Below, piece by piece: positions 41,987-43,600 of a DNA stretch of 64,000 bases. Position numbers and translations under genes: made by a program. The DNA is from an uncultured Pelagibacteraceae bacterium. GTDB taxonomy: Bacteria; Pseudomonadota; Alphaproteobacteria; Pelagibacterales; Pelagibacteraceae. The notes beneath the pieces are model-generated. The model saw only the letters and a program-made list of their open reading frames with translations, ran no database searches and was not told where the DNA came from. Each line of letters begins with the position of its first letter. Positions within the stretch are counted from its first letter, which is position 1. Where the stretch lies: NCBI GenBank assembly GCA_902521675.1, contig CABYSP010000002.1:32259-96258 (forward strand), in the 5' to 3' direction.

Positions 41987-42916
41987 ATGAAAATTTTAGG
42001 AATAGGAAACGCTATAGTAGATGTTATTTGTAAAGTTGATGACAATTTTCTTGTTCAAAATAATCTCATAAAAAGCACAATGAAACTTATTTTTGATGAA
42101 AATGAATTTAATAATTTAATTAAGTCCCTCAAAATAGAGAAAACTGTTTCTGGGGGATCTGTCGCAAACTCAATTGTTGGCTTATCTCAACTTGGAAATA
42201 AAGTAGGTTTTATAGGAAAAGTTACAGATGATGCATTTGGTAGTAAGTATGAAGAAGGACTAAAAAAAGAGAAAGTAGAATATTTTTATTCCAAGAAAAA
42301 AGAGGAGTTACCAACTGGAACATGTCTAATATTAGTAACTCCAGATTCCGAAAGAACAATGTGTACCTTTCTGGGTACTGCTGGAAAGATTAATGAAAAT
42401 GATATTGACTCTGATGTCATTAATAATAGTGAGCTAATTTTTCTAGAAGGTTACTTGTGGGATGAAGGAGAACCAAAAAAAGCTTTTGATAAAGCAATTA
42501 GTACTGCAAACAAAGTTGCCATGTCTTTGTCTGACCAATTTTGTGTTGATAGACATAAACCTCACTTTTTAAATTTAGTACAAAATAATTTAGATATTAC
42601 TTTTGCTAATGAACAAGAAATTATGTCATTAATTAAAGCAAAAGACTTTAAAGAAGTTATAACTTTTTCAAGAGAACTCAAAAAATTGGTGGTTGTTACA
42701 AGAGGAGAAAAAGGAGCAATCGCAGTAAAAGGTGAGGAAATCTATGAATGTGATGTTCAAAACAATCTTAAAATTGTTGACCTTACAGGAGCAGGTGATC
42801 TTTTTGCTGCAGGTTTCCTGCACGGATATATTAATAAAATGTCGATTAGAGAAAGTCTTGAAAAAGGGACTGAGATGTCATCAAAAATAATAGAACAAAT
42901 TGGTGCAAGACTTTAA
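41987..42916 (+). CDS. PfkB family (adenosine/ribokinase-like) kinase
   Basis: GGSVANSIVGLSQLG, DLTGAGDLFAAGFLHG. Confidence 0.93.
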   Translation: MKILGIGNAIVDVICKVDDNFLVQNNLIKSTMKLIFDENEFNNLIKSLKIEKTVSGGSVANSIVGLSQLGNKVGFIGKVTDDAFGSKYEEGLKKEKVEYFYSKKKEELPTGTCLILVTPDSERTMCTFLGTAGKINENDIDSDVINNSELIFLEGYLWDEGEPKKAFDKAISTANKVAMSLSDQFCVDRHKPHFLNLVQNNLDITFANEQEIMSLIKAKDFKEVITFSRELKKLVVVTRGEKGAIAVKGEEIYECDVQNNLKIVDLTGAGDLFAAGFLHGYINKMSIRESLEKGTEMSSKIIEQIGARL

Positions 42917-42918
42917 GA

Positions 42919-43038
42919 TTATTTTTTTTTTCTTTTGAAACTCCCCTTACCTTTTTTTGGTCTAACTATTTTTTGTTTATATTTTTTTGTGTAAAGATCT
43001 TTTGCTATTGGATTTTTTTTACTTAATTTGGTAACCAT
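42919..43038 (-). CDS. arfA: Predicted minimal alternative ribosome-rescue factor A (ArfA), 39 aa
   Basis: MVTKLSKKNPIAKDLYTKKYKQKIVRPKKGKGSFKRKKK*; KKGKGS(Y/F)xRK signature and upstream F/Y-(R/K)-Q-(R/K)-(V/I) pattern of ArfA; below the ORF-track length cutoff. Confidence 0.8.
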   Translation of the reverse strand: MVTKLSKKNPIAKDLYTKKYKQKIVRPKKGKGSFKRKKK

Positions 43039-43600
43039 TTTTTTTACTAACTATAAATTTATTATCATTGAAAAAATTAGAAATTTTTTTTCTTAACCTA
43101 TAAATGTGAGTCTCAACTGTATGAGTCTCAATATCAGATTGATAACTCCAAACTTTTTCTTGTAATTGATTAATATTTACCGGTTTATCTTGTTTTGATA
43201 GATAAGTTATCGTATTAATTTCTTTTTCAGTCAATTTGAGTTTCAAGTTGTTTAATTGTATTTCTCTAGAATTCAAATCAATAACATAATTTTTTATCTG
43301 AACTTTAGATTGGCTGTTAAATTTGACTTTTAAAAATTCAATGTTTATTTTTTCAACTAATTTGAAAATATTGAGTGGAAGATTTTCTAAAATAAAAAGA
43401 TTTTGTATATTTGAATATTTTTTATTTGTTATAATTAAATAATTATTCAAAATTTTTGTTTTTTCATTTAACAAGTTCTCATTTTCTACATATGTAATTT
43501 CAAAATTTAAATCTGAATTAAGTTCTTCAAGAATATGATATAATGAGTTAAATTTGTATATTATAAGATTTTGACTAGTCACAAAAAGAACATATGACAA
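43019..43600 (-). CDS. Winged-helix (OmpR/PhoB-type) DNA-binding protein with a degenerate receiver-like N-terminus
   Basis: C-terminal LTEKEINTITYLSKQDKPVNINQLQEKVWSYQSDIETHTVETHIYRLRKKI; no clear phospho-acceptor Asp context. Confidence 0.82.
   Translation of the reverse strand: MSYVLFVTSQNLIIYKFNSLYHILEELNSDLNFEITYVENENLLNEKTKILNNYLIITNKKYSNIQNLFILENLPLNIFKLVEKINIEFLKVKFNSQSKVQIKNYVIDLNSREIQLNNLKLKLTEKEINTITYLSKQDKPVNINQLQEKVWSYQSDIETHTVETHIYRLRKKISNFFNDNKFIVSKKNGYQIK

Follow-up and report, generated by a model that had tools for sequence, protein, structure and literature searches.

A reduced ArfA-like protein of SAR11 bacteria is a probable ribosome-rescue factor with no visible non-stop switch

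SAR11 bacteria make up one of the most abundant lineages of ocean cells. The window analyzed here, a stretch of 64,000 nucleotides from an uncultured Pelagibacteraceae bacterium, contains at positions 42919-43038 of the minus strand a short open reading frame (ORF) that was originally predicted to encode a minimal ArfA-like ribosome-rescue factor. The question raised by this locus is whether so short an ORF is a gene, whether its product belongs to the ArfA family, and how such a factor would be expressed and act in SAR11. The ORF runs from ATG to TAA as predicted, and its exact translation is the 39-residue protein MVTKLSKKNPIAKDLYTKKYKQKIVRPKKGKGSFKRKKK followed by the stop codon. Its neighbors, assigned by Pfam and synteny, are given as context only. 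Upstream lies a gene (43019-43600, minus strand) for a 193-residue protein with a Trans_reg_C DNA-binding domain, the 3' end of which overlaps the arfA-like start by 20 bases; downstream lies a convergent gene (41987-42916, plus strand) for a PfkB-family kinase, the stop codon of which is two bases from that of the arfA-like gene. The order pfkB-arfA-regulator-YkuD is kept in most of the 30 loci examined, with other DNA in the pfkB/arfA interval at a few of them. The regulator has a recognizable C-terminal DNA-binding domain and no receiver-domain match in Pfam, its homologs (39-75% identity) are far more variable than the adjoining kinase, and its gene is retained also by genomes without arfA.

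The ORF is a real gene and not a chance reading frame. A protein search of 61 whole genomes covered 36 others from its genus, of which many are incomplete, and 29 of these 36 encode the ORF at 61-82% identity; the named relatives that carry it are SAR11, uncultured Pelagibacteraceae and Candidatus Pelagibacter ubique, and the SAR11 proteins are 35-42 residues long. Codon variation in 130 distinct copies from cells is concentrated at the third position, which is about three times as variable as the first and second (summed entropies of 10.8, 9.7 and 31.0 at positions 1, 2 and 3). Across these copies an N, an L, the KKGKGS block and an R are invariant. The median dN/dS is 0.13, an approximate value, since it was calculated on a 30-codon core from those pairs whose dS is below 1.5. 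Two of the checks proposed with the original prediction, namely whether the gene is conserved in relatives and whether it is under purifying selection, thus came out in its favor.

The sole Pfam match of the window protein is ArfA (PF03889, E=1.1e-5), as the prediction anticipated, though at 25.3 bits it falls 0.2 bits under the cut-off of 25.5 in hmmscan; scored in the genome search it reaches 25.7 bits, above the cut-off. All 29 aligned genus members match the same model, and the window protein has no match in NCBIfam. A profile built from the genus members and compared with the whole PDB retrieved six sequences, all of them Escherichia coli ArfA (YhdL), with a best E-value of 7.9e-6. The gapless alignment of about 30 residues claimed at the outset was recovered by HMMER over 32 residues; N14, L20, Q27, an aromatic residue at position 25 and a number of basic residues are shared. 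The claimed common block KKGKGS(F/Y)xRK is present as well, its invariant KKGKGS part lying at 42940-42957 (minus strand), the equivalent by homology of the mRNA-channel tail of ArfA. We conclude that the ORF very probably encodes a member of the ArfA family by homology, cut down to its working core.

ArfA of E. coli places its basic KGKGS tail in the vacant mRNA channel and uses residues 15-31 to bind and open RF2 (PMC6299226, PMC5378476). We propose that the basic KKGKGSFKRKKK tail of the SAR11 protein would likewise enter the channel left empty when a ribosome stalls on a stop-less message, that the N-terminal NPIAK-L----YK segment would recruit and open RF2, and that RF2 would then free the nascent chain. 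In the gapless alignment, the segment N9-V25 (42964-43014, minus strand), with conserved N, K, L and Y/F, is equivalent to residues 14-30 of E. coli ArfA, which contact RF2 there (PMC5378476, PMC6299226), and a similar role is presumed here. Of the E. coli contact residues L19, P23, L24 and F25, only F25 is retained, as Y, a position occupied by Y or F across the family; because L19, P23 and L24 are replaced by D, K and K, the predicted RF2 contact must differ in detail from that in E. coli. E. coli ArfA loses its activity when A18 is mutated to T, and the window protein has K at this position. E. coli ArfA is reported to work still when cut at Asn47 and to be inactive when shorter (PMC5378476), and the last residue of the window protein corresponds to residue 44, about three residues below this shortest working truncation; selection across the family argues that the 39-residue length works in its own setting. 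The free peptide is expected to be disordered. RF2 with the features needed by ArfA is present in SAR11: the RF2 of five relatives has SPF and IGWGHQ. Since SAR11 RF2 keeps SPF, GGQ and the equivalents of W319 and F217, and RF1 is without the tryptophan, RF2 dependence is likely; the predicted rescue activity is likewise probable.

E. coli arfA encodes 72 residues, of which about 55 form the active protein, whereas the SAR11 gene has a native stop codon (TAA, 42919-42921, minus strand) immediately 3' of the core. This difference, part of the original prediction, holds among relatives, in which the stop lies seven residues past KGKG in 100 of 140 copies and within 13 residues in all. The predicted contrast with the non-stop truncation of the E. 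coli gene also found support: at the 3' end of the window gene, predicted folding is no more stable than in shuffled sequences (z=+1.3), and neither a hairpin nor a terminator-like site was found at the gene. About 38% of copies have 8-10 consecutive A near the stop, on which slippage could occur; the terminal A-run was considered as a truncation signal and dropped, since it is not conserved. A basis for the E. coli non-stop switch is thus not visible in the SAR11 gene. Because its own stop directly follows the core and no truncation signal is visible, the active protein should be produced directly from ordinary mRNA. It would then act in parallel with tmRNA/SmpB, unlike E. coli ArfA, which is made from a non-stop message only upon failure of trans-translation. 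A precedent is ArfT of Francisella, a 40-residue factor that is not regulated by truncation (PMC6299226).

A KGKGS-type gene is found in 187 of 248 Pelagibacterales genomes (strong matches, E at or below about 1e-9). The window's own genome has an alpha-type tmRNA (contig C5, 51539-51837), and tmRNA together with SmpB is present in 18 of 18 good genomes tested, so the arfA-like factor coexists with trans-translation; the window's own assembly, 81% complete, yielded neither SmpB nor RF2. None of 118 Pelagibacterales genomes reaches the ArfB cut-off, the RF-1 domain matches in 61 genomes being, apart from pieces, full-length RF1 or RF2; GGQ, of the ArfB catalytic domain, is absent from the 39 residues. 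Because ArfB is absent, the arfA-like protein is probably the main alternative rescue factor of the clade, and it would stand in for the ArfB of most other Alphaproteobacteria. In a published survey of 15,259 genomes, arfB was recorded in 2,022 and arfA in none of 2,376 Alphaproteobacteria (PMC11633108); the SAR11 proteins may have been missed there because, being short, they score near the PF03889 cut-off. In our data, PF03889 matches occur in nine of 386 genomes of the class, three of them in Pelagibacteraceae. The others are scattered in six genomes, possibly in prophages, and one of these has a core very near that of E. coli ArfA, RTPTFRQRKIRPKKGRGSYSR.

The reading that we favor, with considerable confidence, is a directly expressed, RF2-dependent rescue factor of the ArfA type, in which ribosome binding, RF2 dependence and direct expression are the parts that we infer. 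One rival is a basic peptide with some other ribosome- or RNA-binding role that resembles ArfA through composition; the window protein is indeed 44% lysine plus arginine, and an AT-rich genome favors lysine codons. Scored with the family profile, however, the core of E. coli ArfA reaches 29.2 bits, whereas 20,000 shuffled versions of it peak at 14.4 bits. In a set of about 12,400 SAR11 background ORFs, the highest-scoring unrelated one has 8.0 bits, a figure that excludes the one true member in that set (52 bits). The resemblance to E. coli ArfA therefore exceeds what lysine richness can produce. Moreover, only ArfA was returned from the PDB, phage relatives score above the window protein in Pfam ArfA (up to 39.7 bits, well over the cut-off) and yield a profile that reaches E. 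coli ArfA at E=1.6e-9, and the clade is without ArfB, all of which makes this rival highly improbable. BrfA of Bacillus subtilis is likewise an RF2-dependent rescue factor with a basic tail (PMC6881298), but it has other N-terminal helices, 72 codons, an internal terminator and no KGKGS. Rescue systems of this kind are species-specific (PMC6881298).

Action like that of ArfT from Francisella tularensis, with RF1 recruited as well as RF2 and the RF2-specific hydrophobic contacts partly missing, would suit the polar residues that replace L19 and L24. ArfT is also of similar length (40 residues against 39), ends at its own stop codon without truncation and has a basic C-terminal tail (PMC6299226). 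It is reported only from Francisella, however, and lacks F25, which the SAR11 family keeps as Y or F; its tail reads KKGGSTNKK in place of the canonical KGKGS block, and the family profile retrieves ArfA. We thus regard this mode of action as unlikely, though the most probable of the rivals. Less probable again is that the protein is ArfA by descent with an expression that still depends on trans-translation, either because RNase III cleaves the overlap with convergent pfkB transcripts or because of slippage on the terminal A-run. The closeness of the convergent pfkB stop, at a distance of two bases, and the terminal A-runs of some family members would fit; the missing hairpin and terminator, the lack of conservation of the A-run, and those relatives that have other DNA instead of pfkB beside arfA speak against it.

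The KGKGS-type gene is not universal in the order, and the genomes that lack it point to a second protein. Of the 61 Pelagibacterales genomes in which the KGKGS gene is missing, 40 encode a sister protein elsewhere in the genome; it has 35-48 residues, starts with NPxAKxLRTPK(F/Y)K or nearly so and ends in a tail such as KKKYNRKK. The carriers comprise 17 of 18 genomes in family f2, 3 of 3 in genus g6 and 20 of the 38 g1 genomes that lack the KGKGS gene. Examples are found at L304 (1446-1623, minus strand) and L301 (1473-1614, plus strand), and some of the copies among loci L295-L324 score as DUF7230. None of the 248 genomes has strong matches to both types at separate places, and within g1 the mutual exclusion gives 8e-17 in Fisher's test, with counts made by hand from tables and shared ancestry ignored. 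The sister genes occupy at least four unrelated neighborhoods, so replacement happened more than once, and at least five arfA-less genomes have pfkB directly next to the regulator gene, with nothing between the two. Purifying selection on the sister copies of g1 is strong (dN/dS 0.06). Profile comparison links the KGKGS and sister types at 97-98% probability, and the sister profile, which has no KGKGS, ranks E. coli ArfA first in the PDB, weakly (E=0.03). Since the sister protein occurs in 40 of the 61 genomes and no genome has both, the sequences suggest two interchangeable types of rescue factor. Neither type was found in 21 of the 248 genomes, some of them complete; a combined profile of both types gave nothing convincing in these 21, and ArfB was also not detected. 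In such genomes, tmRNA may be the only rescue system, or there may be a factor that escaped detection.

DUF7230 (PF23876) shares with the SAR11 proteins the start NPxAKxLRxPxxRxxVVxNKK; it differs in having no GKGS and a tail like KKxYNRKK or KKTYSRKxKH. The g6 sister copies pass its cut-off (best E=2.8e-6), and one sister copy weakly matches both DUF7230 and ArfA. To equate all sister proteins with DUF7230 would go too far, since the g1 copies do not match it; the window ORF has no DUF7230 match at E up to 10. DUF7230 was also rejected as a general answer, being rare overall (2 of 398 genomes of the phylum), and no mention of it was found in the literature searched. A wider scheme, to which we give an even chance, is that ArfA and the KGKGS-less sisters, DUF7230 included, would form one superfamily of release-factor-dependent rescue proteins with exchangeable mRNA-channel tails, and that SAR11 would swap types by acquiring such genes repeatedly, with a large pool carried by phages as the probable source.

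Relatives of the ORF are encoded by at least 234 viral contigs in a viral contig scan, and the carriers are of several types, including T4-like, HTVC010P-like and HMO-2011/CRP-like phages. In T4-like contigs (L098, 3001-3114, and L109), with translations judged by eye, arfA lies between clamp loader genes resembling gp44 and gp62, near regA and gp43. In two HTVC010P-like contigs (L086 and L090), a host-like arfA stands beside an endolysin gene whose product is 94% identical to that of HTVC010P; because no KGKGS ORF was seen in the region read of HTVC010P itself, recent capture of arfA by contigs of this type is suggested. In seven HMO-2011/CRP-like contigs (for example L125, 3001-3117), arfA is overprinted inside another conserved ORF in a different frame; 16 of the 31 variable sites are third codon positions of arfA, so that the arfA frame seems to be selected. 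Published ArfA annotations exist for the phages HTVC027P (PMC12753301) and Citromicrobium phage RXM (PMC8953757), and our literature search found no paper on a chromosomal arfA-like gene of SAR11. HTVC027P gp30, annotated as ArfA (PMC12753301), shares the NPVAKEVRTPKYKSQIIKPKKGRGSFKR core; it differs in its 58 residues with an N-terminal extension, and it is phage-borne and highly expressed in infection. Despite this clear relative, tblastn searches of GenBank phages with the window ORF and with one phage relative yielded weak matches or none because short lysine-rich queries fail there, and PHROGs matches were weak and without function.

The SAR11 gene, as read from its sequence, is a reduced ArfA variant, new in a class for which the large survey listed arfA in none of its 2,376 genomes (PMC11633108), and would add to SAR11 a previously unlisted back-up to trans-translation. 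If this is true, a near-minimal ArfA without a non-stop switch is widespread in streamlined cells, in the place usually held by ArfB, and many marine phages carry it as well. A more novel lead than the reduced ArfA itself is its putative interchange with the KGKGS-less type. If the superfamily is real, DUF7230 would be an undescribed rescue factor, and the one-or-other pattern would offer a direct handle on the function of an uncharacterized protein family.
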